A stretch of 64,000 nt of DNA from Pseudotamlana agarivorans (GTDB lineage Bacteria > Bacteroidota > Bacteroidia > Flavobacteriales > Flavobacteriaceae). A program made the translations under genes and the position numbers. The notes beneath the pieces are model-generated. The model was not told the DNA's origin. It saw only the letters and a list, made by a program, of their open reading frames with translations, and ran no database searches. The stretch is from positions 1-64,000 of the forward strand of contig NZ_JAHKPD010000025.1 of assembly GCF_018860245.1 (NCBI RefSeq). Reading direction: 5' to 3'. Positions within the stretch are counted from its first letter, which is position 1, and each line of letters opens with the position of its first letter. This document shows positions 9,548 to 63,018 of the stretch, one piece after another.

Positions 9548-10501
9548 TTAGCCTTTAAAGACTCCCATATTAGCATATTTATCCATACGCTCTGAAACCA
9601 AATCTGCTGGTGATAACTTTTTAAGCTCCTCAAAAGATTTTAAAATAGTATCACTAACCGATTGAAATGTTTTTTCACGATTTCTATGTGCGCCACCAAG
9701 TGGTTCTTTAATAATACCATCTACAAGTTTCAATTTTTTCATATCTGAAGCTGTAAGTTTTAAAGATTCAGCAGCTTGTTCCTTATACTCCCAGCTACGC
9801 CATAAGATTGAAGAACAAGATTCTGGCGAAATCACAGAGTACCATGTATTTTCTAACATGAAAACTTTATCACCAACACCAATACCTAAAGCTCCCCCAG
9901 AAGCTCCTTCACCAATTACGACGGTAATAATAGGCACTTTTAAACGCGTCATTTCTAAAATATTTCTAGCAATCGCTTCTCCTTGTCCGCGCTCTTCAGC
10001 TTCCAAACCTGGATAAGCTCCCGGTGTATCTAAAAAAGTTACCACAGGAATACCAAATTTTTCAGCAGACTTCATTAAGCGTAACGCTTTTCTGTAACCT
10101 TCTGGATTAGCCATTCCGAAGTTTCTATATTGCCTAGTTTTGGTATTAAACCCTTTTTGCTGACCAATAAACATAAAGCTTTGGTCTCCAATTTTACCTA
10201 AACCACCAAGCATAGCCTTATCATCTTTAAAGCTTCTATCGCCGTGAAGTTCTAAAAAAGAAGTGCCACAAATCGCTTTAATATAATCTAAGGTATATGG
10301 TCTATCTGGATGACGTGATAATTGCACACGTTGCCATGGCGTCAAATTTTTATATAATTCTTTTTGAGTATCTTTTAACTTCTTTTCAATCTGAGAACAA
10401 GTCTCAGAAACATCAACATCACTTTCTTGTCCAATGATTGCACATTTTTGCAATTGGTCTTCAAGTTCTTTTATTGGAAGTTCAAATTCTAAATATTCCA
10501 T
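9548..10501 (-). CDS. accA: Acetyl-CoA carboxylase carboxyltransferase subunit alpha
   Basis: Subunit of the AccA2D2 carboxyltransferase that moves the carboxyl group from biotin to acetyl-CoA, the first step of fatty acid synthesis. The 317-residue length is standard. Family strings include the coiled N-terminus [70 protein letters not shown] and [14 protein letters not shown]. It sits next to dnaB in the tgt-lptG-accA-dnaB run, downstream of the remains of a DMT-type permease gene. Confidence 0.97.
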
Positions 10502-10540
10502 AGAAATTTAGTTATTACTTTTTAAACAAAGGTTAGTCTG

Positions 10541-10548
10541 CAAATATA
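10541..10548 (-). promoter_or_regulatory. -7 box of accA
   Basis: TATATTTG on the minus strand, 39 nt before the accA ATG, matches TAnnTTTG exactly. A TTG at the -33 position is not evident. Confidence 0.55.
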
Positions 10549-10571
10549 AAAACTTTAATTATGATATGATG

Positions 10572-10775
10572 TTAAGTTCGCTTTCTTTTTAGTTTTCTTC
10601 CCCCTTTTAATCTAGCGTTTACAACAATGAATCCAATAATAACAAGGGCTCCGATATAAAAATTAGTGCTCATATTTTCTTTTTCAGGAAACAAATTAAC
10701 GGCTAATGTAATACCATAAACTGGCTCTAAATTATAGGTTAACACAACAGCATACAGGTTAATAATTACAACTGT
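10572..10775 (-). pseudogene. 3' remnant of an EamA/DMT-family transporter gene
   Basis: On the minus strand 67 sense codons are open before TAA (10572-10574) and read as the end of an EamA-type drug/metabolite transporter: the hallmark NLEPVYGI, then a last membrane helix (FYIGALVIIGFIVVNARL) and a basic tail. Upstream the frame stops at once (TAA at 10776-10778) and the lptG stop codon is six nt further on, so about four fifths of a normal gene of roughly 300 codons is missing. No start codon or signal lies in the remnant. A DMT permease gene next to lptG is, as I recall, a common arrangement in flavobacteria, so an internal deletion here is the simplest reading. Confidence 0.8.
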
Positions 10776-10781
10776 TTAAGT

Positions 10782-11858
10782 CTAACGTTTGGCATTGGAC
10801 ATCAGGAATATAGCCAAAATACCAAAAATAACATTTGGAAACCATACAGCTACTAACGGCGGAAAATCAGATTGCTCTGCCATTACCCCGAAAATCTTAT
10901 CAAAAAACACGAAAACCATAGCGATGCAAATACCAACAGCTAGATTAACTCCCATACCGCCACGTCGTTTCATTGATGATACAGCCACGGCAATAATGGT
11001 TAAAATAAACACAGATACTGGTAAGCTCCATTTTCTATATAGTACCAATTTAAAGCGCCCTACATTACTAGAACCTCGAGCCTCTTCTTTAGCTATAAAG
11101 TTTTTTAAATCGCCATACATTTTAGTTTCAGCAGCATAAATAACAGGAATTAAATCATCGACATCAAAACTGAAAAGGGTATCTTTTCGTCGTACAATTT
11201 CTAATTCATCTTCACGTTCCCCAATAGTACGTTTCACATAATTGGTAAGGCGGTACAAAGTATCTTTTTCAATATATTGAATGCTCGAGGCATTAATTTT
11301 ATACGCTAGTTTGTTGTCTTCAAAATGCTCTAAAGTGAAGTTATTACCTCTGCTGTTTTTAACATCGAAACTACTAACATAAATAATATCATTATCATTA
11401 ATTTGTCTGTAAACATTGGTATTATCTACGTCACTACGCCCTTTTTTAAAATATTTGTAGCTAAAATCATTAAAACCTTCACTTGCCTTAGGCGCTAGAA
11501 AAAGCCCCATTATAATGGCTAGAATCGACACAATAAAAGCGCCAATCATATAAGGTCTTAAAAACCTAGAAAACGAAACTCCTGAGCTTAAAAATGCAAT
11601 AATTTCGGTGTTATTAGCCAGTTTAGATGTAAACCAAATAACAGATAAGAATAAAAATAGTGGAAATAATAAATGAGCAAAATAAACAGTAAAATCTAAG
11701 AGGTACACTAAAACCTCATTTAAAGGCACATCATTATCTAAAATTTTACCAATTTTCTCTGCCAAATGCACCGTTATCCCAATGGGAATAAAGAGCAGTA
11801 ACATCATAAAAAATGTAAACAAATAACGTTTTAGTATGTACCAATCTAAAATTTTCAT
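10782..11858 (-). CDS. lptG: LPS export ABC transporter permease, LptF/LptG family
   Basis: A YjgP/YjgQ family inner-membrane permease of the Lpt machine, which extracts lipopolysaccharide from the inner membrane. The 358-residue protein starts MKILDWYILKRYLFTFFMM, has three N-terminal membrane helices, a periplasmic beta-jellyroll domain (about 125-260), and three C-terminal helices, as expected. The N-terminus is LptG-like, but LptF and LptG are hard to separate on sequence alone. It starts five nt after the tgt stop, so it is translated from the tgt message. Confidence 0.9.
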   Translation of the reverse strand: MKILDWYILKRYLFTFFMMLLLFIPIGITVHLAEKIGKILDNDVPLNEVLVYLLDFTVYFAHLLFPLFLFLSVIWFTSKLANNTEIIAFLSSGVSFSRFLRPYMIGAFIVSILAIIMGLFLAPKASEGFNDFSYKYFKKGRSDVDNTNVYRQINDNDIIYVSSFDVKNSRGNNFTLEHFEDNKLAYKINASSIQYIEKDTLYRLTNYVKRTIGEREDELEIVRRKDTLFSFDVDDLIPVIYAAETKMYGDLKNFIAKEEARGSSNVGRFKLVLYRKWSLPVSVFILTIIAVAVSSMKRRGGMGVNLAVGICIAMVFVFFDKIFGVMAEQSDFPPLVAVWFPNVIFGILAIFLMSNAKR

Positions 11859-11863
11859 GTTAC

Positions 11864-12994
11864 TTATAAACGATTATCCATTTGTTTTACCATTTTGTCT
11901 TTCCATGTTCTAAAATCTCCTGCTAATATATGTTTTCTAGCTTCGCGAACCAACCATAAATAAAATCCTAGGTTGTGAATAGTGGCAATTTGTTTCCCTA
12001 GTAATTCATTAACAGTAAATAAATGACGTAAATATGCTTTCGTATACTCGGTATCCACAAAAGTGATTCCCATCTCGTCTATAGGTGAAAAATCGTCTGC
12101 CCATTTTAGGTTTTTAATATTTATAGTACCGTTGGCAGTAAATAACATGCCATTTCTGGCATTTCTAGTAGGCATTACACAGTCGAACATATCTACACCT
12201 AACGCTATATTTTCTAGAATATTGATTGGTGTTCCTACCCCCATTAAGTATCGTGGTTTGTCTTCAGGTAAAATAGAACATACTACATCGGTCATGGCAT
12301 ACATTTCTTCCGCTGGTTCTCCAACCGATAAACCACCAATAGCATTACCTATTGCTCCTGCATTAGCTATATACTCTGCCGATTGTTTTCTTAAATCGGT
12401 ATACGTACTCCCTTGTACAATTGGAAAAAATGCTTGATTATAATCATATTTTAGCGGTGTTTTTTCTAAATGATTAATACATCTATCCAGCCAACGGTGG
12501 GTCATGTGCATGGAACGCTTCGCATAATTATAGTCGCAAGGATAAGGGGTACACTCATCGAAAGCCATAATGATATCGGCACCGATAGAACGTTGAATTT
12601 CCATTACATTTTCTGGAGTAAACGTATGATAGCTTCCGTCGATATGCGATTTAAACTTAACACCTTCTTCTTTAATTTTTCTATTGGCAGAAAGTGAATA
12701 TACTTGATACCCCCCTGAATCGGTTAAAATATTCCTGTCCCAATTCATGAATTTATGAAGTCCGCCAGCTTTTTCGATAATATTCGTTTGTGGGCGCAAG
12801 TATAAATGGTAAGTATTGCCCAATATTATATCTGGATTTATATCATCCTTTAACTCACGCTGATGCACGCCTTTAACCGTTCCAACAGTACCTACAGGCA
12901 TAAAAATAGGCGTTTCAATAACACCATGATCTGTTGTTAATTTACCTGCCCTAGCCTTACTCTGTGGGTCTTGTGCGTTTATTTCAAACTTCAT
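11864..12994 (-). CDS. tgt: tRNA-guanine transglycosylase (queuine tRNA-ribosyltransferase), zinc ligands absent
   Basis: Exchanges guanine-34 for a queuine precursor in GUN-anticodon tRNAs. The 376-residue protein has the family blocks TPIFMPVGTVGTVKG, ILTDSGGYQVYSL (substrate-binding/catalytic Asp), GGLSVGEPAEEM and FDCVMPTRNARNG (second catalytic Asp). The usual C-terminal zinc site, CxCxxC followed by His in YTRAYLHHLF, is not intact: here the region reads FVDTEYTKAYLRHLF, so the His-containing helix is present but the three Cys ligands are absent. I believe this is shared by other Bacteroidota, but cannot check here. Five nt upstream of lptG. Confidence 0.95.
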   Translation of the reverse strand: MKFEINAQDPQSKARAGKLTTDHGVIETPIFMPVGTVGTVKGVHQRELKDDINPDIILGNTYHLYLRPQTNIIEKAGGLHKFMNWDRNILTDSGGYQVYSLSANRKIKEEGVKFKSHIDGSYHTFTPENVMEIQRSIGADIIMAFDECTPYPCDYNYAKRSMHMTHRWLDRCINHLEKTPLKYDYNQAFFPIVQGSTYTDLRKQSAEYIANAGAIGNAIGGLSVGEPAEEMYAMTDVVCSILPEDKPRYLMGVGTPINILENIALGVDMFDCVMPTRNARNGMLFTANGTINIKNLKWADDFSPIDEMGITFVDTEYTKAYLRHLFTVNELLGKQIATIHNLGFYLWLVREARKHILAGDFRTWKDKMVKQMDNRL

Positions 12995-51509: not shown

Positions 51510-52358
51510 TTATTTAAAGCGTCCAACAAAACTTTTTGGTTCTAATTCAGGCAATTCAAAAACTTCTTGAGCTTCAGATTTACGATCGTTTCCAATCTCC
51601 ATTAAGTATTCAATAATGGAATTTCTAGTTTCCTTGAAACTCTCATTATCGTTTAATTCGGTTTTATCACGAGGGCGTTCAATATCAATTTTAAATTCTG
51701 GTCCTAAAGTGGCTTTTGGCCCTGGTTTTAAAGGAATAATACGATCTGCCATATAAATACCTTCATCTACATCGTTGGTTATTAATAAGGCCGTTCGCTT
51801 ATCTTTTCCCCAGATATTTAAAATTTCATCTTGAAGATTTCCACGTGTTAAGGCATCCAAGGCTCCTAAAGGTTCATCCATAATAATCATCTCTGGCTTC
51901 ATAGCTAAAGCTCTAGCTACAGCAACACGCTGGCGCATCCCTCCAGATAATTCATTGGGACGTTTGTTAATCGCGTGCGATAAGCCTACCATTTCAACAT
52001 AATCCTTAACGATCTCATTTAACTCCGTTTTGCTTTTCTTAGGAAAGGCTTCTTTAACAGCCATATATATATTTTGAGCTACAGTTAACCAAGGTAATAG
52101 TGAGTAATTCTGAAAAATCACACCACGTTCATGGCTCGTTCCAACTACGGGTTCTCCTTTAAATAAAACCTCACCACTTGTAGGTTGTATAAGCCCGTTT
52201 ATAAGATTAACTAAAGTTGTTTTTCCACTTCCTGTGAATCCTACAATTGCTACAAACTCACCTTCTTCAATGGTTAAATTGATATTTGAAAGCACTTCGG
52301 TTTCGTTTTCACCTTGACCGTAAGATTTATATATATTTTTTAGTTCTAAGTAAGCCAT
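51510..52358 (-). CDS. nrtC: Nitrate-type ABC transporter ATP-binding protein (NrtC-like ATPase)
   Basis: A 282-residue ABC ATPase: Walker [30 protein letters not shown], signature [15 protein letters not shown], Walker [13 protein letters not shown]. The H-loop has Asn in place of His ([10 protein letters not shown]), a change seen in the NrtC branch and likely to weaken or alter hydrolysis at this site; the partner ATPase keeps His. It lacks the C-terminal nitrate-binding regulatory domain of cyanobacterial NrtC. Two ATPases from separate genes form a heterodimer. Confidence 0.9.
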
Positions 52359-52443: not shown

Positions 52444-53550
52444 TTATATCGCATCTGATTTATTAAACGATACCCAGTTTTGAATGGTAAGCATAATGCG
52501 ATCTAATAAGAATCCGATAATACCGATAACAAACATGGCTACGATAATTTTTGAATTTGAATCGTTGGCTCCGTTTTGAAATTCTTCCCAAACAAATAAT
52601 CCTAAACCTGGACTCTGCGCTAATAATTCAATGGCAATTAAAACCATCCATGCTACAGATAATGTAATCTTTAAACCTGTAAATATTAACGGTAAAGACG
52701 ATGGTAAGATCACTTTAAAAATCTTTTGTACTGGTCCTAACTTCAAGACTTTAGCCACATTAATATAATCTTTATCTACTGAGGCTACACCCATAGCTGT
52801 ATTTACTAAAGTTGCCCACATCGAACAGAAACCAACACTAATAAAAGAAATGATGAACGAGCTATCTTCTGTAGAATCGATTAAAATTGTTTTTACAATC
52901 ATAAAAACTAATAAGTACCATACTACAGGCGATACAGGTTTAAAAATTTGAATAAACCAGTTGAAAGCACTTTTTAACGTCGGACTTAATCCTATAAATA
53001 TTCCGATCGGGATTGCAATAATTAAGGCTAATAAAAACCCTGCGAATACCGTTTTTAAACTCATCACGATTTGATCGATAAAAGAAGGTCTACCTGTATA
53101 AGTAATCGGGTCTTTACCCGCAGCAATACGTTTTTCATTTAAAGCCGCTGTTTTTTCAATAAACGCCGCTTTATCGGCTCTAATAATGTTGTGATCTCTA
53201 ATTAAAGACTGGTAAGAGCCCCAAACTTGACCAGGAGATGGTAAAGTGTTTGGCTGGCAGCTAATATCTCCAGAAGCGATACATGTACGCATAGCCTCAG
53301 CAGCTTCTGGCCCTTGGTCAACTAAAGCTGTTTGAATTTTATAATTAGCTTCTCTTTCATACAAGGCTCTTGACCCCAGTTGCCACAGTCCGATAAATAA
53401 AAGAATAGAAGCAAGCGGTACAACTACTTTACGTAAAAATTTTACAAAATCTTCTTTCTCTAACTTCCCCGTGAACAGATCCTTTAAGGTGGTTAAAAAA
53501 CCCAATCCCATAAATTTGGATACTTTATCTAATGTTATACTTTGCTTCAT
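52444..53550 (-). CDS. nrtB: Nitrate-type ABC transporter permease (NrtB-like)
   Basis: A 368-residue inner-membrane permease of the binding-protein-dependent family. The N-terminus has one helix at about 43-65, then a periplasmic insert (about 70-165), then five or six helices of the standard permease core; the EAA-type loop VNTAMGVASVDKDYINVAKVLKLGPVQKIFKVILPSSLPLIFTGL is clear. NrtB-like, but about 90 residues longer than the cyanobacterial protein because of the insert. It lies between the binding protein and the two ATPases, which together form an importer. Confidence 0.9.
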   Translation of the reverse strand: MKQSITLDKVSKFMGLGFLTTLKDLFTGKLEKEDFVKFLRKVVVPLASILLFIGLWQLGSRALYEREANYKIQTALVDQGPEAAEAMRTCIASGDISCQPNTLPSPGQVWGSYQSLIRDHNIIRADKAAFIEKTAALNEKRIAAGKDPITYTGRPSFIDQIVMSLKTVFAGFLLALIIAIPIGIFIGLSPTLKSAFNWFIQIFKPVSPVVWYLLVFMIVKTILIDSTEDSSFIISFISVGFCSMWATLVNTAMGVASVDKDYINVAKVLKLGPVQKIFKVILPSSLPLIFTGLKITLSVAWMVLIAIELLAQSPGLGLFVWEEFQNGANDSNSKIIVAMFVIGIIGFLLDRIMLTIQNWVSFNKSDAI

Positions 53551-53629: not shown

Positions 53630-55024
53630 TTACTGTACTGCTTCGTCTTTGTTTCCTATCTTGAAACTGTTGATGTATGATATTGGATCTTTACCATCAT
53701 AAGTTGTTCCATCGATAAAGTCTGCTGTTGCCGGCTTATAACCGTCTGTTGTTGGAATATCTCCTGCAGGAATGTTTCCTTCTTCTACTAAAAGATTAGC
53801 CGCTTTAGTCCAGATATCTGGTCTGTAAATATCTTTGATCGTTTCAGCATACCAATTTGCTGGTTTCGCTTCAGGAATTTGTCCCCATCTACGCATTTGC
53901 GTTAAGAACCAAATACCATCTGAATAAAAAGGATAAGTTGCATTGTACTTGTAGAATACGTTGAAATCTGCCATGTCACGTTTATCACCTTTTTCAAATT
54001 CGAAAGTTCCTGTCATAGAGTTTGCAATTACTGCTTCATCAGCACCTACATATTGAGACATTGATAAGATTTTTACAGCTTCTGCTCTATTTCCTGGCTC
54101 ATCTAACCATTTTCCAGCTCTAATTAAGGCTTTTGTAACAGCGATCGCTGTATTAGGATTTTCTTCAACAAATTTTTCAGTCATTACAAATACTTTCTCT
54201 GGGTTGTTTTTCCAGATATCTAAGTTGGTTACAACAGGCACACCAATACCTTTAAAAACAGCTTGTTGATTCCATGGCTCACCTACACAATATCCGTGAA
54301 TTGTTCCAGCTTCAAGCGTCGCTGGCATTTGTGGCGGAGGCGTAACAGATAGTAAAACATCAGCATCAATTTGTCCTTGAACGTTATCAGCTGTATACAT
54401 ACCAGGATTAATACCTGCAGCAGCTAACCAATATCTAATTTCGTAGTTGTGTGTAGATACTGGAAATACCATACCCATTTTAAAAGGTTTCCCTGAATTT
54501 TTATATTCTGTAATCACTGGCTTTAAAGCATCGGCTTTAATTGGGTGAACAGGTTTTCCATCTGAACCATTTGGTACGTTAGGTTTCATTTTAGACCAAA
54601 CATCGTTTGAAACTGTAATCGCGTTTCCGTTTAAGTCCATTGAAAAAGCAGTGACTAATTTAGCTTGACGACCAAAACCAGCACCTGCTGCAATAGGCTG
54701 ACCGGCTAACATATGCGATCCGTCTAACTGACCATCAATTACGCGGTCTAAAACATTTTTCCAGTTTGATTGTGCTTCTACCGAAACAAATAAACCTTCA
54801 TCTTCAAAAAACCCTTTTTCTTTTGCAATGGCTAATGGCGCCATATCTGTTAATTTGATAAAACCAAATGTTAATTGTGGTTTTTCAATCTCTAATGTTT
54901 TTGTTTTTGAAGTTTCAGGAACTATAGTTTCAGCTATAGTTTCCTTTTTTTCTTTATTACCACAAGAAAATAGCAATGCTGCTACTGGTAAGATTAATGT
55001 TGATTTTTTGAATAGTGATTTCAT
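53630..55024 (-). CDS. nrtA: Nitrate-type ABC transporter substrate-binding lipoprotein (NrtA/CmpA-like)
   Basis: A 464-residue lipoprotein (lipobox LLFSC, Cys21) of the NrtA/CmpA family. Family strings are [104 protein letters not shown] and [12 protein letters not shown]. It should capture nitrate (or nitrite/bicarbonate-like anions) in the periplasm for NrtBCD. The first gene of the operon; its promoter carries the 16-bp palindrome that is also upstream of the globin gene. Confidence 0.92.
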
Positions 55025-55045: not shown

Positions 55046-55148
55046 TAAGTATTAATACTTATACACGGCAAATATATAAGTAGTACTCGTTTTATTTCAT
55101 GATGGATACCATGTACAAACCTCTTTTTAAACCACATTAAAACATGTT
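55046..55148 (-). promoter_or_regulatory. nrtA promoter with two shared blocks
   Basis: In gene direction: 17-nt block AACATGTTTTAATGTGG (55132-55148), 55 nt, -7 box TATATTTG (55069-55076), 7 nt, perfect palindrome TAAGTATTAATACTTA (55046-55061), then the ATG 22 nt later. The palindrome falls at about +1 to +17. The same blocks in the same spacing lie upstream of the globin gene. Confidence 0.7.
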
Positions 55149-55529: not shown

Positions 55530-56237
55530 TTACTTCTCTAAACTTTCAAGCCAGGCTTCCTGGGAAAGCGCTTTATATTTTTTATGATCTCCATAAGGGT
55601 CTTTTCCACCATCAAAATAGGCCTTAATGTATTTCATAGGTATGGTATCTTTTAACTTTTCAGGGACATCATATTTATGATTTCCATGAAAATCATGACA
55701 TTGAATACAAGTATTCCAGGCTTCTTGAGCAATTAATTTTTGATGAGAAACATCTAAAGGGTCATCTTCTACCTCTAAATCTTGATGACAGTTCATGCAA
55801 TAATTAATATTCGCTACCGAAACACGCTCGTTGCCATGTTCGGAATGACAAGTGATACAAGTTGTCGCATCAATATGTGTAATCGCTTCCTTAAATCGAG
55901 GTTCAGAAAACCGATACGTTGGATGTCTGTCGTTAGCTCGGTCGTGACATTGCAAACAGTTATCGACCGTTACATCTTGGGTTCCAAAATCTACTCCTTT
56001 TTCTCTAGCGCCTACTGCGTGAGAGATATTAGATTGCACTTGCTGCAATAAATTACCCTTAGCATCAGCGTGACAAGCAAAACAATTAAGATCTTGATGA
56101 CCTGTATTCATCGGACCAATGGAGACATAAGACTCTGTAGACTCTAGAGTTAAAATATAAAACAATGCCCCGCCCAGCACCAAACCAATGATGCTTCCTA
56201 AAACTTGTCTTTTTCGTAACGGACTTACTTTAAACAT
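55530..56237 (-). CDS. Membrane-anchored pentahaem c-type cytochrome
   Basis: A 235-residue protein with one N-terminal membrane anchor (about 11-31) and a periplasmic domain holding five CxxCH haem sites: CFACH 52-56, CLQCH 94-98, CITCH 127-131, CMNCH 147-151 and CIQCH 177-181. The anchor-plus-multihaem plan is like NapC/NrfH quinol dehydrogenases, but those have four haems and a different N-terminus, so the exact family is uncertain. It is the last gene of the five-gene operon and probably accepts electrons from the quinol pool or the b-type membrane protein and hands them to periplasmic partners. Confidence 0.88.
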   Translation of the reverse strand: MFKVSPLRKRQVLGSIIGLVLGGALFYILTLESTESYVSIGPMNTGHQDLNCFACHADAKGNLLQQVQSNISHAVGAREKGVDFGTQDVTVDNCLQCHDRANDRHPTYRFSEPRFKEAITHIDATTCITCHSEHGNERVSVANINYCMNCHQDLEVEDDPLDVSHQKLIAQEAWNTCIQCHDFHGNHKYDVPEKLKDTIPMKYIKAYFDGGKDPYGDHKKYKALSQEAWLESLEK

Positions 56238-56254
56238 TTATTAAAAGCTTTAAT

Positions 56255-57283
56255 TTATAATTCAATCACTACTTTTTCAGACGCAGGATAACTCACACAG
56301 GTTAAAATTGCACCACTTGCCACCTCACTTTCAGGCAACAAATGCCCTTCAACCATTTGAACTTCGCCTTCCACGCATTGTGCTTTACAAGTCGAACACA
56401 TACCTGATCTACATGAATACGGAATCACCACATTTTCAGACATGGCTTGCTGCAGAATAGACTGGTCTCCCCTAACTTTTAACTCATGGGTTTTACCATC
56501 CTGTTTTAAAGTCACTTCACTGAGCAAGTTTTTTCCTGAAACTTTTATAGTAGGACTTTTAAATACCTCTAATTTTATTTTTTCTCGAGTAACTCCATTT
56601 GCATTTAATATTTCTTTAATTTTCTCCATATATCCTGAAGGACCACATATCATATACTCATGGTCTTCATACTTCAAATCGTGTTTATAAAAAACCGCAT
56701 CTACAAGGTCTATTGTAGCCAAACCGGCATGGTAATTATTCTCCCCTTGAGGATTAAAAGATATGATATGCTCCACAGAAAATTTTTCAGAATAAGCAAC
56801 CTCTAAAGCTTTAATTTCATCATGGAAAATAATAGAATCCATGCTTTGATTGGCGTAGATTAGAAGCACTTTAGAATTTGTCTCCTGGGTAAGTATTGAT
56901 TTCACAATTGAAAACATGGGGGTTATACCGCTTCCTCCTGCAAATAACACATATTGCTTTTTGGCCTTAGCTTCTGGCTCAATACAGAATGTTCCTGCTG
57001 GAAGACCGACTTCAATTTTATCGCCTGCACTTAAAAAATCGTGTACATAATTTGAAATTAAACCTTCCTCGACGCGCTTGATGGTTATTTTCAAGTCCTT
57101 ATCGGTATAAGGGTTGCTACTAAAAGAATATGCACGATTATGTTTGACGCCTTCAATTGGAATCTTTATGGTTAAAAACTGCCCCGGCTTGTACTTTAAC
57201 TTCCTAAAAAAGTTTCCGTTTTTAAAACAAATACTTACCGCATCGTCTGTTTCTTTAATTATATCTTTTATTAATAGCTTCAT
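56255..57283 (-). CDS. FAD/NAD(P)-binding reductase with C-terminal 2Fe-2S ferredoxin domain (Hcr/PaaE type)
   Basis: A 342-residue soluble electron-transfer protein. FAD domain with RAYSFSSNP (about 50-58), NAD(P) domain with FAGGSGITPMFSIVKSIL and MICGPSGYM, and a plant-type 2Fe-2S domain with CRSGMCSTC...C (C-x4-C-x2-C plus LTC). Related to hybrid-cluster-protein reductase and PaaE. It lies next to the b-type membrane protein (7-nt gap) and in one operon with a globin, so it may feed electrons from NAD(P)H to either. The single-domain globin lacks its own reductase domain, which makes this a candidate partner. Confidence 0.92.
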   Translation of the reverse strand: MKLLIKDIIKETDDAVSICFKNGNFFRKLKYKPGQFLTIKIPIEGVKHNRAYSFSSNPYTDKDLKITIKRVEEGLISNYVHDFLSAGDKIEVGLPAGTFCIEPEAKAKKQYVLFAGGSGITPMFSIVKSILTQETNSKVLLIYANQSMDSIIFHDEIKALEVAYSEKFSVEHIISFNPQGENNYHAGLATIDLVDAVFYKHDLKYEDHEYMICGPSGYMEKIKEILNANGVTREKIKLEVFKSPTIKVSGKNLLSEVTLKQDGKTHELKVRGDQSILQQAMSENVVIPYSCRSGMCSTCKAQCVEGEVQMVEGHLLPESEVASGAILTCVSYPASEKVVIEL

Positions 57284-57290
57284 TCTTCAT

Positions 57291-57773
57291 TTATTTATAA
57301 TAAAATACCATAACCACATGAAACAACAGCAATATACTCACCATCATAGACAGAGCGACATGAGTAATCATCCACCCTTTAAACCAAGCATCACTTCGAC
57401 TCTTAATCACATCTAGATTAAGGTAACCTAGCAAGGTATTTGAGAAAAACACATAAGAAAGCAGCAATAAATAGCCGTAGCCTAACGCCATACTATGGAA
57501 GTAAAAAAACAACGGACTTATTGCACCTAACCACTTGTGAATGGTTTGCATGGTCATCGCGTGTTTACGCCATTTTGAAACCGTTCGTGTTAGCGTAAGC
57601 ATCCATTGAAAGCAAATAAACAGCGCCAAAACCAAGCCAGACCAGCGTTTATACATTTGGTCCTGCTGCAATACCTCCAGCCATTCCCATGAAAGTCCTA
57701 AAAAGTATTGCAGAAAGTAAGCGCAAAGCAACAGCAATCCTAATACCGTGGATTTATTCGTACTTAATACCAT
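57291..57773 (-). CDS. Four-His b-type membrane cytochrome (ferric-reductase/NOX-like)
   Basis: A 160-residue membrane protein with about five hydrophobic helices. Two helices carry matched pairs H79-x13-H93 and H138-x13-H152, the spacing that holds two stacked b-haems in ferric reductases and NADPH oxidases. Other His (H71) lies just outside. There is no flavin domain in this chain, but the FAD/2Fe-2S reductase gene starts seven nt downstream. Together they resemble a split ferric-reductase/NOX: cytosolic NAD(P)H to FAD, then across the membrane through two haems. Haem binding and the electron acceptor are inferences. Confidence 0.72.
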   Translation of the reverse strand: MVLSTNKSTVLGLLLLCAYFLQYFLGLSWEWLEVLQQDQMYKRWSGLVLALFICFQWMLTLTRTVSKWRKHAMTMQTIHKWLGAISPLFFYFHSMALGYGYLLLLSYVFFSNTLLGYLNLDVIKSRSDAWFKGWMITHVALSMMVSILLLFHVVMVFYYK

Positions 57774-57869
57774 AAATAGTTATGATTGTTTGTTGTCATT
57801 GAAAAACACAACCTTTTAATTTTATAATAAAACCTTACGGAAGGCTGCCTTAATCTTATTGATTTCTTT

Positions 57870-58685
57870 TTACTCAGAAGTTACTACCAAATGCTTCACC
57901 GTTTCATATGAAGACAGCTTTTTCACGCTATCTAAAAACACTTCAGCTGAAGGCAAATAGAAGCCTTCTTCTGGCCATTTATCACCTATCTCTGGTTTTT
58001 CACTTGCTTTAAAATTTTCAATTTCATCTAAGTATTCCATATAAACATCTACTGTCCCTTTAGCATAAGAACTAAGTACATCCACCGTTTCCTTATAAGT
58101 TAAAGAGTCTTTGGGGTATTGCCAAGTTGTGGCTCCCATGACATCACCTAGTTTCCAATCAGATTTGGTCGTTTGCGGGTGCTTATTGTGACAGGTTACA
58201 CAGGCATCTGCACTGGCTAAATCTGCAAACATGGCCGTATGCAATTTCTGGTCTTCATCAAAGAAAAACTGCGGTTTTTGGTCTTTTTTAATTTGAGTAA
58301 AAAGTTCGGCTTGTTTGCCTTCAAACTTATTCGCGGCGTTCACCGGAAAATCAGAACCCAAATACAAACCTAAAGGCACTGGGCTCTTTCTAAGGCTCGT
58401 TGCGACACCACGTAAAAATAATGCTGGTAAGGGTCCCGCTTCTACGTCGTCTTTTCTCCAATCCTCATCAAACTTCATCCCTTGAGTTTTTCCTTTACCA
58501 ACAATGGCTTTGGTGTATAGAGTTCTAGTTACATCATTTTCTTTAGAGACCATTTCTAACACCTCTTCTACCGAAAAAGCATTTTCAACAGTAGCCGTAT
58601 CCGCTTTATCTTCCGGTACACCCCCGCAAGAATGTAACATACAAATACTCGTTCCTAATAAAATGGTTTTTAATAGTATTCTCAT
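57870..58685 (-). CDS. Mono-haem lipoprotein with Tll0287-like (DUF3365) domain
   Basis: A 271-residue exported lipoprotein (lipobox LHSC, Cys20). The Tll0287-like/DUF3365 domain covers most of the protein: TRTLYTKAIVGKGKTQGMKFDEDWR, then a haem site DACVTCHNKHPQTTKSDWKLGDVMG with CVTCH. The fold is PAS-like and often occurs in redox sensors. It lies between the globin and the b-type membrane protein genes in the operon (16 and 96 nt gaps). In the periplasm it could receive electrons from the b-type protein or sense a ligand such as NO. Confidence 0.82.
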   Translation of the reverse strand: MRILLKTILLGTSICMLHSCGGVPEDKADTATVENAFSVEEVLEMVSKENDVTRTLYTKAIVGKGKTQGMKFDEDWRKDDVEAGPLPALFLRGVATSLRKSPVPLGLYLGSDFPVNAANKFEGKQAELFTQIKKDQKPQFFFDEDQKLHTAMFADLASADACVTCHNKHPQTTKSDWKLGDVMGATTWQYPKDSLTYKETVDVLSSYAKGTVDVYMEYLDEIENFKASEKPEIGDKWPEEGFYLPSAEVFLDSVKKLSSYETVKHLVVTSE

Positions 58686-58701
58686 AATTACTTAGTTTTA
58701 A

Positions 58702-59115
58702 TTAATATGCAGCTTCAATCATCACACTTGACATGGTTCCATAAACCTCAGCCCAAGCGTCTTTAACTTCAGGTGTAAAATCATCACCCAAGCCTGCGGC
58801 AAGCGTACCCAATAATGCAGCACCTACAGTCTCGTAATGAGAAGGCTCTACCTTATAGGCTACATGGCGCTTACCTAAATCTTTTAAAACTGGAATTAAT
58901 GCATCTAAATTATTAAGGCCAGCAACGGCCGCTCCAAGCATAGTCATTAACTTATTACCTTGAGTTTTCATCGCATCACCGTCGCTAGGAAACAAAGGCT
59001 TTAATTTAGGATCGAGTTCGAATAGTTTTGTATAGAATATTTCTGCAGCAGCAGGTGCTATAGGTTTTACTTTTTCAAAAGAGTCTTGTACAAGAGTAAC
59101 TGTTTTTGCTTCCAT
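58702..59115 (-). CDS. Single-domain globin (Vitreoscilla/flavohaemoglobin-like)
   Basis: A 137-residue haem protein: VQDSFEKVKPIAPAAAEIFYTKLFELDPKLKPLF at the start and the proximal-His block GKRHVAYKVEPSHYETVGAALLGTL, which is the typical F-helix region of bacterial haemoglobins. No reductase domain is attached. It heads the five-gene operon. Such globins bind O2 and NO and, with a reductase, oxidise NO to nitrate; location beside nitrate-transport and nitrate-reduction genes supports NO handling. Confidence 0.95.
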   Translation of the reverse strand: MEAKTVTLVQDSFEKVKPIAPAAAEIFYTKLFELDPKLKPLFPSDGDAMKTQGNKLMTMLGAAVAGLNNLDALIPVLKDLGKRHVAYKVEPSHYETVGAALLGTLAAGLGDDFTPEVKDAWAEVYGTMSSVMIEAAY

Positions 59116-59151: not shown

Positions 59152-59254
59152 TAAGTATTAATACTTACCCAAAGCAAATGTAAAATGTATATGGCTAACC
59201 AATTATGAAATAAAGCAGGCTTAAAGAAGCTTTTATTCCACATTAAAACATGTT
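59152..59254 (-). promoter_or_regulatory. Globin operon promoter with the same two blocks as nrtA
   Basis: In gene direction: AACATGTTTTAATGTGG (59238-59254), 55 nt, -7 box TACATTTG (59175-59182), 7 nt, palindrome TAAGTATTAATACTTA (59152-59167), then the ATG 36 nt later. Block sequences and spacing equal those upstream of nrtA while the sequence between them is unrelated. Confidence 0.7.
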
Positions 59255-59305: not shown

Positions 59306-60055
59306 TTAAATATCTAGAAAATAATTATGGTCGTTAATCTCTTGTTTGAGCAAGCGCACATCTGGAATTCCAATTTTTTTCCCTTTTGCTGAAATAAGAT
59401 TTTCCTTTTTTAGAGCTGAAAAAATGCGAATCACCTGTTCCTCTGTAGTTCCTGCATAATCTGCATATTCCTTACGGCTTAAAGGTAATTTTAAGAAACC
59501 ATTTAAATCACCAAACTTGCGATGTAAATATAGTAAGGTATCAATAACACGCTCACGAACCGTCATTTGAGAAATAGACTTGACTTTATTTTCACTTCTA
59601 TTGAGTTCATTAGCATAAAACAACATCATACTATAGGCAAACTGCGGATTTTCAAACAAGGCTTCCTGAAGTTCGTCTTTTGAAAAATAACACAACAGCG
59701 TATCCTGTAACGCAATGGCTCCAATAGAATAATACTCTTCGGTACCAAAACCACGATGTCCGATAATCTCACCTTCTTTAGCAAAACGAACAATTTGCTC
59801 TCTACCATTAATACCCGTTCTAAATACTTTAACGGTTCCTTTAAGTATAAAAAAGAGTCCATTTACAGGAGCGCCTTCCATAATAAACTGCTGCCCTTTT
59901 TTACATTTTAAAGTGTTTTTGCTTTTTACGAAAGTAGAATCTAATGCCGTAGACAAACTGCTTTTTATTAAACAGTTTTGATTTAGGCAAACTTCACAAG
60001 ACACATCGTTTAACGATTTGTTTCTTGAATTGGAATGTAAAGCTGATAAAGGCAT
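59306..60055 (-). CDS. FNR-type transcription regulator (Crp/Fnr family, Fe-S-cluster cysteines present)
   Basis: A 249-residue Crp/Fnr regulator. The effector domain has the cNMP-binding fold (GQQFIMEGAPVNGLFFILKGTVKVF); the C-terminal helix-turn-helix includes LPLSRKEYADYAGTTEEQVIRIFSALKK. The N-terminus carries C20-x2-C23-x4-C28, and a fourth Cys sits at 122 (LLCYF). Escherichia coli FNR uses C20, C23, C29 and C122 for its O2-sensitive 4Fe-4S cluster, so this set fits an O2- or NO-sensing FNR. It lies between the NrfD-like gene and the globin operon. A near copy of the palindrome (60079-60094) is in its own upstream region. Confidence 0.9.
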   Translation of the reverse strand: MPLSALHSNSRNKSLNDVSCEVCLNQNCLIKSSLSTALDSTFVKSKNTLKCKKGQQFIMEGAPVNGLFFILKGTVKVFRTGINGREQIVRFAKEGEIIGHRGFGTEEYYSIGAIALQDTLLCYFSKDELQEALFENPQFAYSMMLFYANELNRSENKVKSISQMTVRERVIDTLLYLHRKFGDLNGFLKLPLSRKEYADYAGTTEEQVIRIFSALKKENLISAKGKKIGIPDVRLLKQEINDHNYFLDI

Positions 60056-60078: not shown

Positions 60079-60094
60079 TAAGTAATAATACTTA
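60079..60094 (-). promoter_or_regulatory. Third, imperfect copy of the palindrome upstream of the FNR-type gene
   Basis: TAAGTATTATTACTTA in gene direction, one base different from TAAGTATTAATACTTA, 24 nt before the ATG. A half site (TAATAGT/ACTATTA) follows at 60105-60111. No good TAnnTTTG box at the matching distance; TAGTTTTT is the nearest. Confidence 0.5.
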
Positions 60095-60197: not shown

Positions 60198-61421
60198 CTA
60201 AGCTTCCTTCTTGTATCTCAAATTACCCAATTCGATACCTATGGCTGTTTTAGCAAGTATCGTAAACACAAAAGCACCCATAGCCCAAATACCTAGAGTC
60301 ACGCCTATTTCTATACCTGTAGGTGTGTATTCAACAATTTTACCATAAGGCCCTGGAATAAAACCAGGCACAATTAATCCGAAACCTTTTTCAATCCAAA
60401 TGGCCACAAACAAGAGGAAACAACAAAAGAAAAGCACTCTAAAATTATTTCTTAATTTATGAAAAGTCAGCAATACGGTAGCCAGTACATTCATAGGAAT
60501 CGCCGTCCAAATCCATGGTAACAAAGCGTCTTTTCCGTGTAAACCAAAGAATAAATAATAAGCGCTTTCACTGTGGTGTGTAGGTGCATAAAATTCTTTA
60601 AAAAGCTCCGAAACCAACATAATTAGATTAATTTGGGCCGCTACAGTAACCACCATAGCAATTTTTCTAAGGGTTCTATCCTGAACTTTGAATTCGGTAA
60701 AGTTTCTAATAATTGCTAAAACTAATATGATTAACGCAGGTCCTGCAGCAAATGCAGAGGCTAGAAAACGCGGACCTAATAGGGCATTATTCCAAAACGG
60801 TCGAGCCTGTAAACCTTGATATAAAAACGCAGTAACCAAGTGAATACCAACAGCCCAAAACACCGATAAAATAGCCCCTGGAATATAAACACTAGACTTT
60901 GCCTCCTTACCTTGATAATGTCTAAATAATATATATAACGGTATGGTGATATTTAAAAACAGATAACCATTTAGTACCAAAACATCCCAGGTAAGCATAG
61001 AATTAGGGAAGTTAAACACCCCTATCCCGGGCAACATGTGCCATAACACCGAAGGTCCTCCCATATCTGCAACCACAAAAGCCAAACACATAATTAAAGC
61101 AGCCACAGCAAGCCCTTCACCTATTAACACCGCTTGTTTAAAATCTACATCATGCAAGACATAAGTAGGCATAACAAGCATAACGGCGGCGGCGGCAACT
61201 CCAACTAAAAATGTAAAATTAGAGATATAAAGTCCCCAGCTCACACGATCGGTCATTCCCGTAACACTCAAACCTTCACTCAATTGAATGGAGTAGCAAT
61301 ACATACCCACCAACATGATAAAAGTTAATGCCCCCATCCAAATATGATACCTCAAAGAACCGCGCGTTATCGTAGCTAAACTGTCCTTAACCAAACTTCT
61401 AAAAACTTTAAATCCACTCAT
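60198..61421 (-). CDS. nrfD: NrfD/PsrC-family membrane subunit (quinol-linked)
   Basis: A 407-residue inner-membrane protein with about ten helices of the NrfD/PsrC family. Recognisable features are RGSLRYHIWMGALTFIMLVGMYCYSIQLSEG, WGLYISNFTFLVGVAAAAVMLV, GGPSVLWHMLPGIGVFNFPNSMLTWDVLVLNGYL and GPYGKIVEYTPTGIEIGVTLGIWAMGAFVFTIL. NrfD-like subunits exchange electrons with (mena)quinol and pair with a four-cluster Fe-S protein, here encoded upstream. A 448-nt repeat-filled gap separates the two genes. Confidence 0.92.
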   Translation of the reverse strand: MSGFKVFRSLVKDSLATITRGSLRYHIWMGALTFIMLVGMYCYSIQLSEGLSVTGMTDRVSWGLYISNFTFLVGVAAAAVMLVMPTYVLHDVDFKQAVLIGEGLAVAALIMCLAFVVADMGGPSVLWHMLPGIGVFNFPNSMLTWDVLVLNGYLFLNITIPLYILFRHYQGKEAKSSVYIPGAILSVFWAVGIHLVTAFLYQGLQARPFWNNALLGPRFLASAFAAGPALIILVLAIIRNFTEFKVQDRTLRKIAMVVTVAAQINLIMLVSELFKEFYAPTHHSESAYYLFFGLHGKDALLPWIWTAIPMNVLATVLLTFHKLRNNFRVLFFCCFLLFVAIWIEKGFGLIVPGFIPGPYGKIVEYTPTGIEIGVTLGIWAMGAFVFTILAKTAIGIELGNLRYKKEA

Positions 61422-61869: not shown

Positions 61870-63018
61870 TTAATCCATAAAATACCAGAACTTAGGTTCT
61901 GTTCCTAAATCTTCTTTCAGTCTAAATACTTTCTTATTTTCTAAAACCCATCTAATCGTACTTTTAGGGTCTAATAAATTCCCAAAAATTCGCGCACCTG
62001 TTGGGCAAGCTTCAACACAAGCAGGATTTTTACCAGCTCTTGAACGCTGTACGCAGAACGTACATTTTTCCATCACACCTTTCTTACGCATACGGTTTCC
62101 TAAGTAATGCTGATTGTGGTTAACTTCCTTTTCAGGAACCTCAGGTTTACTCCAATTGAAGCGTCGCCCATCATAAGGACAAGCTGCCATACAGTATCTA
62201 CAGCCCACACACCAATCGTAATCGATAACCACTAAACCATCATCTTCACGCCAAGTAGCTTGTACCGGACAAACCTCAACACATGGCGGATTATCACAAT
62301 GAAAACACTGTGTCCCCATGTAAAAATGACCTTCCGCAGGCACTTCATGGTAATAATTATCATCAGCTTCATTGAAATTAAAGCCTTGACCATCTTTCAT
62401 CTCATGAATTCTAATGTATTGCATTTCCGAATCGCGGTCTTGGTTATTCTCCTCAACACAAGCATTCACACAATCCATATAACCTTGACACTTCGAAATA
62501 TTAAAAGCATAACCAAACAAGACATCTTCCTCAGCATTTTTTGAAGACATACTTAAATTTTTCCCTGTTCTTAATTCGTAAGAGCGCATTAAACGATCAA
62601 CCGTAGCCCCTTTTTCCTCATCAGACATCAATTTGTAGTTCCCCTTAAATTGCTCTTCCCAATCTATCTGTGCCTTCTCTTTGCTTTCATCACCACCTAT
62701 CACACTACAAGAGGTACTTACCGCACCGGCACCAATTAACAAACTTGCTGTTAATTTCTTAAACGCCGTACGTCTGTCCATTTTCACATCAAAAACCTGA
62801 TCGAAACCATCTTTTTTAGTTTCCTCTCCAATCGATGCCTTTATAGCAGCTTCAGCAAATTCTGCATCAGTCATTTGCGCTACATCTGGTATTTCACCAC
62901 TAGAAGGTTGATGAGAACCACAGCCTCCAGAGGTTTTTCCGCAGCCACAAGACCCCTTATCAGGTTCATTATTTCTACCAAAATTTAAAGAAAACCATTT
63001 TTTGTTAGTACCGCTCAT
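61870..63018 (-). CDS. NrfC/DmsB-type four-cluster Fe-S protein with an internal Tat-like signal
   Basis: A 382-residue protein. The C-terminal half holds four Fe-S motifs: I, C177-x5-C183-x3-C187 (the usual second Cys of C-x2-C-x2-C-x3-C is Y180); II, C238-x2-C241-x4-C246-x3-C250; III, C270-x2-C273-x2-C276-x3-C280; IV, C319-x2-C322-x11-C334-x3-C338. A Tat-like segment RRTAFKKL and hydrophobic stretch ending STSC lie at 82-104, after an 80-residue N-terminal part containing Cys-rich GSCGCGKTSGGCG. The long N-terminus is like that of alternative complex III subunits; a start at 62781 (residue 80) is an alternative. It should link the NrfD-like subunit with multihaem partners. Confidence 0.9.
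   Translation of the reverse strand: MSGTNKKWFSLNFGRNNEPDKGSCGCGKTSGGCGSHQPSSGEIPDVAQMTDAEFAEAAIKASIGEETKKDGFDQVFDVKMDRRTAFKKLTASLLIGAGAVSTSCSVIGGDESKEKAQIDWEEQFKGNYKLMSDEEKGATVDRLMRSYELRTGKNLSMSSKNAEEDVLFGYAFNISKCQGYMDCVNACVEENNQDRDSEMQYIRIHEMKDGQGFNFNEADDNYYHEVPAEGHFYMGTQCFHCDNPPCVEVCPVQATWREDDGLVVIDYDWCVGCRYCMAACPYDGRRFNWSKPEVPEKEVNHNQHYLGNRMRKKGVMEKCTFCVQRSRAGKNPACVEACPTGARIFGNLLDPKSTIRWVLENKKVFRLKEDLGTEPKFWYFMD

Follow-up and report, generated by a model that had tools for sequence, protein, structure and literature searches.

A conserved five-gene haem and flavin operon at nitrate loci of marine Bacteroidota, a possible accessory cassette for handling reactive nitrogen

A 64,000-nucleotide stretch of the Pseudotamlana agarivorans genome (contig NZ_JAHKPD010000025.1, positions 1 to 64,000; hereafter the window) contains a five-gene operon for a haemoglobin (GLB), a haem lipoprotein (LIPO), a membrane protein predicted to hold b-haems (MEM), a flavin reductase (RED) and a multihaem cytochrome (CYT). 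The five-gene set is confirmed as real and conserved, not a product of chance. At slightly less than an even chance, we tentatively propose that the operon serves nitrate assimilation as an accessory cassette, handling reactive nitrogen, most likely nitric oxide (NO), both inside and outside the inner membrane. The genes, with protein lengths in amino acids (aa), are as follows.

58702..59115, minus strand: GLB, single-domain haemoglobin, 137 aa (Pfam Globin, 76.1 bits, cut-off 22)
57870..58685, minus strand: LIPO, lipoprotein (lipobox Cys20) with one c-haem, a DUF3365/Tll0287 haem-Cache domain and a C-terminal helical part, 271 aa
57291..57773, minus strand: MEM, protein of five transmembrane (TM) segments with two H-x13-H pairs (H79/H93 and H138/H152), two b-haems predicted, 160 aa
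56255..57283, minus strand: RED, NAD(P)H/FAD/2Fe-2S reductase, PaaE/Hcr-like, 342 aa (Pfam FAD_binding_6, NAD_binding_1 and Fer2 above cut-off)
55530..56237, minus strand: CYT, pentahaem c-type cytochrome with an N-terminal anchor, 235 aa (several multihaem families above cut-off)

A preliminary description had presented 55530..59115 as an operon resembling a split NADPH oxidase (NOX) or ferric reductase with an added globin. Its observations stand: all five minus-strand open reading frames (ORFs) and their domains are present as described, MEM carries both H-x13-H pairs, the flavin reductase is encoded as a separate neighbour across a 7-nt gap (57284-57290), and the gene set, whose absence from relatives had been named as grounds for rejection, is retained. 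MEM occurs in 7 of 60 genomes, P. agarivorans included, and all five genes stand in the same order in P. agarivorans, six relatives and a plasmid of Flammeovirga kamogawensis, the single record returned from a plasmid collection. We compiled 77 loci spanning Flavobacteriaceae, Marinoscillum and Flammeovirga, 76 from a scan of genome contigs plus the Flammeovirga plasmid; because the 76 were selected by two conserved MEM peptide patterns they are biased towards close relatives, and counts over loci take in related genomes. By BLAST, LIPO, MEM, RED and CYT are found at 77/77 loci, GLB at 71 and a neighbouring FNR-like regulator gene at 50. Median gaps are 24 nt (GLB-LIPO), 57 nt (LIPO-MEM), 8 nt (MEM-RED) and 12.5 nt (RED-CYT), with 218 nt between the regulator gene and GLB; ORF starts were set mechanically, so some intergenic gaps are negative. 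Across the phylum (395 genomes), the MEM search returned only P. agarivorans itself and two weak matches, each partial and about 30 residues long. One Marinoscillum locus (L086, about 9600-12100) has an insertion between RED and CYT, a CcmF-like gene for cytochrome c assembly.

The window places the operon between a nitrate transporter and a periplasmic nitrate reductase (nap) cluster, whose napA lies just past the window end. The surrounding features are listed here.

51510..52358, minus strand: nitrate ABC ATPase (NCBIfam TIGR01184, 282.9 bits, just below the cut-off of 291.8)
52444..53550, minus strand: NrtB-like nitrate ABC permease (Pfam BPD_transp_1)
53630..55024, minus strand: NrtA-like nitrate ABC substrate-binding protein (Pfam NMT1_2; 'nitrate' taken from the adjacent ATPase match and the neighbourhood)
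55046..55061: second copy of the palindrome, exact, upstream of nrtA
59152..59167: palindrome TAAGTATTAATACTTA, exact, predicted to be the operon's operator; it lies 37-52 bp ahead of the globin start
59306..60055, minus strand: Crp/Fnr-family regulator, 249 aa, with FNR-like cysteines C20, C23, C28 and C122 (Pfam cNMP_binding and HTH_Crp_2 above cut-off)
60079..60094: third copy of the palindrome, one mismatch, upstream of the FNR-like regulator gene
60198..61421, minus strand: NrfD/DsrP-like membrane subunit of the nap cluster (NCBIfam DsrP, 418 bits, above the cut-off of 350)
61870..63018, minus strand: DsrO-like 4Fe-4S subunit of the nap cluster (NCBIfam DsrO, 196.7 bits, below the cut-off of 200)

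This context recurs. Within the fetched loci (8 kb per side where the contig allows, 12 kb for the F. kamogawensis locus), neighbours among the 77 include nrtA (52), a NasA with a NirB-like diaphorase part (20), napA (9), nrfA (9) and molybdenum-cofactor genes (14-16). NasA at 65-75% identity was present in 12 of the 13 genomes behind chosen outlying loci (one of them partial), including the four Flammeovirga genomes and the Marinoscillum genome; in the remaining genome, G802, only a relative at 38% was found. Among 397 genomes of the family, MEM is present in 31 and NrtA (E <= 1e-60) in 73, divided into 31/31 MEM-positive versus 42/366 MEM-negative genomes (Fisher p 2.9e-26, kinship ignored). 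Globin matches follow MEM within the 73 NrtA genomes, occurring in 30/31 MEM-positive (all but G256) and 5/42 MEM-negative genomes; of those five, three have the length of a flavohaemoglobin, and the other two are single-domain globins encoded within about 6 kb of nrtA. Nitrate loci carry the operon as an optional cassette, and several related loci lack all or most of it: a genome of the same genus (G002) has napA to dsrP, the FNR-like gene and nrtA with the operon absent between the last two, and G240 has only the globin at this site. In G365, a 72-aa CYT-like ORF between the FNR-like gene and nrtA (L101:9999-10217) is a likely trace of operon loss.

The palindrome extends the link beyond the window. 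The P. agarivorans genome holds five TAAGTATNNATACTTA sites (a 16-bp palindrome; reversed control pattern, 0), which precede this operon, nrtA and, on contig C20, nirBD, narK and nasA (about 480 bp upstream). Of 78 operon upstream regions, each of 260 bp, 52 contain TAAGTA-N0-6-TACTTA, usually between -44 and -60. The 77 loci hold 125 TAAGTA-N4-TACTTA sites, for which the nearest downstream gene is GLB (48), nrtA (35), FNR (18), nasA (5), an MFS gene (4), a hemA-type gene before GLB (4), LIPO (3) or one of six others (two of them di-globin genes), with two sites lacking an assigned gene. On this basis we infer from shared sequence that operon expression is tied to nitrate metabolism. Candidate regulators are encoded nearby and on C20: NarX-like PilJ kinase and NarL-like response regulator genes follow nirBD, and the window has its FNR-like gene. 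FNR-type (4Fe-4S) regulators use four cluster cysteines; the first three are present in nearly all FNR-like homologues listed, and the fourth is placed elsewhere in several. Canonical sites for FNR (TTGA-N6-TCAA) and CRP (TGTGA-N6-TCACA) upstream of the operon numbered zero in the 78 regions. The half-site TACTTAT presumably resembles the NarL heptamer and AAGTA-N4-TACTT the FNR spacing, a likeness that does not decide which regulator binds.

MEM is the part that recalls NOX enzymes. H79, H93, H138 and H152 are invariant (77/77), whereas H71 is found in only 26/77. In the AlphaFold model (mean pLDDT 87, pTM 0.80) the His pairs lie on helices 66-93 and 128-158, the third and fifth of five long helices, and hydropathy likewise gives five TM segments. 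Four His in two pairs on TM3 and TM5 are a feature of the NOX/FRD superfamily (PMC5676040), and MEM has it, without the sixth TM helix of that superfamily and without the fused FAD/NADPH dehydrogenase of fused NOX enzymes. Model residues 37-160 align to residues 27-150 of SpNOX with matching His register, the SpNOX haem ligands being H69/H129 and H82/H142 (PMC11031084). That the MEM pairs face each other is suggested by the helix assignment and this register, not by a distance. Two other proteins of 333-345 aa (L105:562-1596 in G759 and L106:589-1587 in G657) match the MEM profile at their C-terminal end only and contain two H-x13-H pairs, and their genes are flanked by one for a 4Fe-4S protein and one for a large multihaem cytochrome; they are possibly members of a wider family of b-haem/multihaem modules.

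RED and CYT would flank MEM in an electron path. The RxY[ST], GSGxTP-type and 2Fe-2S Cys motifs of RED are kept in 77/77, as are C291, C296, C299 and C329. An assignment as PaaE, the phenylacetyl-CoA epoxidase reductase, was rejected (NCBIfam equivalog 256.4 versus 420.8 bits): the architecture is the same, the enzyme different. CYT has a hydrophobic segment at about residues 12-30 and exactly five CxxCH in 76/76 scored, the contig at locus L083 ending inside the gene, which is also why CYT clustered in 76 loci against the 77 given by BLAST; with six further invariant His (H47, H105, H134, H165, H184 and H187), its His complement appears sufficient for five bis-His haems. In genome G256, whose MEM shares 38% identity with the best-matching MEM of the 77 loci, RED and CYT form a single 571-aa protein in which a hydrophobic segment separates the 2Fe-2S part from the haem part; it is encoded ahead of LIPO and MEM in a set that has no globin. 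The topology that comes naturally to this fusion is a reductase in the cytoplasm linked to haems in the periplasm, which supports an electron path across the membrane. The split NOX/ferric reductase path of the preliminary description thus survives as the best reading of MEM, RED and CYT together, given the His invariance, the SpNOX register and the fusion; as an arrangement it is not new, E. coli MsrQ/Fre being a precedent for separate FRD and FNR proteins (PMC5676040, PMC11031084).

LIPO had been described as a mono-haem lipoprotein. It does have one CxxCH (77/77), but it is more than a carrier, matching the Tll0287-like/DUF3365 haem-Cache family (Pfam PF11845, 32.2 bits, cut-off 24.1) and lacking the axial Cys of Tll0287. 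Past the lipobox, the CxxCH cysteines are its sole Cys in 77/77, so the His/Cys ligation of Tll0287 cannot apply, and among the c-haems of the set that of LIPO alone seems to lack an obvious second axial ligand of known kind. Foldseek gave no match for LIPO at E <= 0.001, and LIPO and MEM profiles against PDB sequences gave nothing meaningful.

GLB is a globin domain without a reductase, of the single-domain type (Vgb/Bjgb); an NCBIfam flavohaemoprotein model aligns to GLB residues 2-134 solely through its globin part. Its pocket residues Y28 (71/71), Q52 (69/71) and H84 (69/71) are presumably Tyr B10, Gln E7 and His F8. The closest sequences of solved structure are 3s1i, 3ubc and 3wfw, with Vitreoscilla haemoglobin also among the matches, and a truncated-globin (PF01152) search of the P. 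agarivorans genome had no match. The six GLB-less loci are all from Aquimarina, a single clade, and all six genomes encode a tandem di-globin of about 300 aa, in five within the fetched locus, with both halves 60-64% identical to the window globin at those five; we count this retention in favour of NO handling. The Aquimarina di-globin genes (L058:6941-7822, L063:13936-14820, L073:11549-12424, L078:13893-14783 and L080:11461-12339) are on the strand opposite to the nearby operon, and the palindrome is upstream of them in 2/5 loci. In F. kamogawensis a gene annotated hemA (glutamyl-tRNA reductase; L008:9170-10432) directly precedes the globin gene, its cluster (c32) recurring in L086-L090.

We propose the following scheme. 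RED would pass electrons from NAD(P)H to FAD and on to 2Fe-2S, as its domains suggest. One branch would lead to GLB, where NO would be oxidised to nitrate when O2 is present, as the pocket residues and the Bjgb-Flp pair of Bradyrhizobium imply. The other would lead to MEM, whose two b-haems may carry electrons across the membrane as in NOX and MsrQ, then to the anchored CYT, a step to which the RED-CYT fusion lends support. From CYT electrons might reach LIPO, where, more speculatively, a periplasmic N-oxide, most likely NO, would be bound or reduced. Three points make NO the likeliest substrate: the unit is tied to nitrate and nitrite reduction, a globin and a flavoprotein (Bjgb and Flp) protect against NO formed during nitrate assimilation in Bradyrhizobium (PMC4724949), and a DUF3365 haem protein that has no axial Cys is slow to release NO (PMC12889525, a preprint). 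On present sequence evidence the electron path appears better supported than the substrate, and the periplasmic acceptor is a proposal. The fullest form of the idea is a two-sided NO machine in which RED serves a cytoplasmic NO-dioxygenase globin and, via MEM and CYT, a periplasmic LIPO acting as a new NO (or N-oxide) reductase, all regulated with nitrate assimilation; we consider this form clearly unlikely. To our knowledge no other enzyme of this sort, an N-oxide reductase on a Cache sensor fold, is known. The preliminary description had suggested that the globin shares the reductase for NO removal, which fits the nitrate context, but it had overlooked the nitrate-locus membership and the shared palindrome.

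A number of observations weigh against an NO-handling cassette of nitrate assimilation. Nitrate use as such does not require MEM, which is absent from 42 of the 73 NrtA genomes. In G256 no globin match was found in the genome, MEM and nrtA share a contig but are about 445 kb apart, and no palindrome occurs within the fetched stretch. Elsewhere, the palindrome is missing from the 260 bp upstream in 26 of the 78 regions, and relatives have two sites that are not at nitrate genes (one between genes without a nitrate link in G001, one inside a gene in G072). The NOX likeness of MEM, which the four-His pattern upholds, is reduced by its five rather than six predicted TM helices and by a Pfam Ferric_reduct score of 15.5 bits, below the cut-off of 28 (15.8 for the G256 homologue); Foldseek returned no match for MEM at E <= 0.001, and unrelated helical bundles rank above SpNOX. 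The invariant H169 and M152 of LIPO (77/77 each) are other candidate haem ligands. LIPO is a stand-alone haem-Cache protein, and such domains are assigned redox-like roles in PMC12889525, where a stand-alone example releases NO rapidly in wild-type and axial Cys->Ala forms alike; a missing axial Cys therefore does not by itself make an NO site. Flp of Bradyrhizobium is required for growth on nitrate too, probably because it donates electrons to NasC (PMC4724949), so RED could serve nitrate reduction instead. Over loci with all five genes, finally, the four non-globin proteins co-vary at r 0.91-0.95 with one another and at 0.70-0.76 with the globin; this tighter non-globin co-variation and the globin-free G256 set argue that the globin is not the core of the unit. 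A simple split flavohaemoglobin, GLB plus RED alone, was rejected as insufficient, because RED, MEM, CYT and LIPO stay together where GLB has left the operon and co-vary more tightly.

Other roles for the same chain were considered. RED, MEM and CYT could form an NAD(P)H-driven supply to periplasmic NapA or NrfA that bypasses quinol, with the globin as a separate NO safeguard and LIPO as a shuttle. The nine loci each with napA and nrfA (by cluster), full-length NrfA in 19/31 MEM-positive versus 8/42 MEM-negative NrtA genomes and one weak profile match of CYT to NrfH (E 1.3e-4, 36 residues) speak for such a supply, which we nevertheless find rather unlikely: 12 of the 31 MEM-positive genomes have no NrfA match, the NasA cluster of 20/77 loci has its own NirB-like NADH part, and the window nap cluster has its own NrfD/DsrO-like and cytochrome genes. 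We give little credence to a periplasmic N-oxide reductase with its catalytic haem in LIPO and nitrite or hydroxylamine, rather than NO, as substrate. The linkage to nitrate genes would suit it, as would a LIPO that accompanies MEM in 77/77 and never has the Tll0287 Cys ligand, but P. agarivorans already has NirBD and NrfA, and we know of no nitrite reductase with such a fold.

The chain might also work as a ferric reductase, or as a superoxide-forming NOX-like oxidase with c-haems, that supplies iron for the haem- and sirohaem-rich nitrate enzymes, which we judge quite improbable. Its exposed haem would be turned to the pentahaem cytochrome and not to iron or O2, the palindrome is a mark of nitrate genes, and no siderophore or iron-uptake gene was recognised among the 30 commonest neighbour clusters, some of which have no annotation; the weak Ferric_reduct similarity and the hemA-annotated gene before the F. 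kamogawensis globin, a cluster preceded by the palindrome four times, are the points that favour it. A sensory role, in which LIPO and CYT provide redox or NO input and the chain sets a redox state instead of acting as an enzyme, seems very improbable: the DUF3365 family does include NO sensors (PMC12889525), but LIPO is a lipoprotein without an accepted signalling domain, and a NarX-like PilJ kinase exists elsewhere in the regulon.

For the proposed NO-handling cassette, one of the closest described units is narK-bjgb-flp-nasC of Bradyrhizobium, in which a single-domain haemoglobin and an NAD(P)H flavoprotein are encoded beside a nitrate ABC transporter, NarK and assimilatory nitrate reductase and are induced with nitrate metabolism, much as the operon is tied to nitrate (PMC4724949). 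Globin and flavoreductase genes are linked to a nitrate transporter and an assimilatory reductase here too, but in a different phylum, with a 2Fe-2S domain in the flavoprotein, with the two-b-haem MEM, pentahaem CYT and haem-Cache LIPO in addition, and with nasA outside the transcription unit and carrying its own diaphorase part. E. coli MsrQ/Fre (with MsrP) likewise combines a membrane b-haem FRD protein, a separate flavin reductase donor and a periplasmic partner (PMC11031084, PMC5676040); here the presumed partner is CYT with LIPO and not a Mo protein, the reductase contains 2Fe-2S, five TM helices are predicted and the context is nitrate. SpNOX shares the two His pairs on TM3/TM5 in matching register and the FAD/NAD(P)H domains (PMC11031084), whereas here the polypeptides are separate, MEM lacks the sixth TM helix, the acceptor is a multihaem c-type cytochrome and the reductase has 2Fe-2S. 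With DUF3365/Tll0287 proteins LIPO has in common a stand-alone CxxCH haem-Cache domain (PMC12889525); it differs in having no axial Cys, in being a lipoprotein with extra C-terminal helices and in being encoded in an electron-transfer operon. Flavohaemoglobin Hmp unites a globin with a Tyr/Gln/His pocket and an FAD/NAD reductase; here these are two proteins, and co-variation ties the reductase, with its 2Fe-2S domain, more closely to the membrane chain than to the globin.

The claim that no described system has this exact set agrees with our limited literature searches of open PMC text, which turned up no unit combining a 2Fe-2S reductase with a pentahaem cytochrome, a haem-Cache lipoprotein and a globin; nor did the operon appear in titles and abstract starts of literature on Tamlana nitrate reduction or on NarX/NarL/nrtA in Bacteroidetes. 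A dedicated transmembrane electron exporter linked to nitrate use by marine and algae-associated Bacteroidota was also not found described in open PMC text. If confirmed, the operon would place stand-alone DUF3365/Tll0287 haem-Cache proteins in a context, add to MsrQ/Fre another physiological role for split NOX-type pairs and supply Bacteroidota with a nitrate-regulon operator. Were LIPO an enzyme, it would be one on a Cache sensor fold and would allow NAD(P)H to drive the reduction of N-oxides beyond the inner membrane by a new route. Within a single genus the operon is naturally present at this locus in some members and absent in others, which makes its effect directly testable.

Two further observations concern the nitrate genes. 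A 476-479 aa protein encoded right after nasA (L123:10267-11697 on contig C20 of P. agarivorans, G000; L022:3976-5415) has a weak match to a nitrite/sulfite-reductase ferredoxin-like half domain. A rubredoxin match lies at the C-terminus of the L022 copy, and the G000 copy has two terminal C-x2-C pairs with only three Cys before them, so that the protein looks like an electron-transfer relative of NirA, not a sirohaem nitrite reductase. A DUF4202 gene (L122:10024-10608) lies between nirD and the NarX-like sensor kinase gene.

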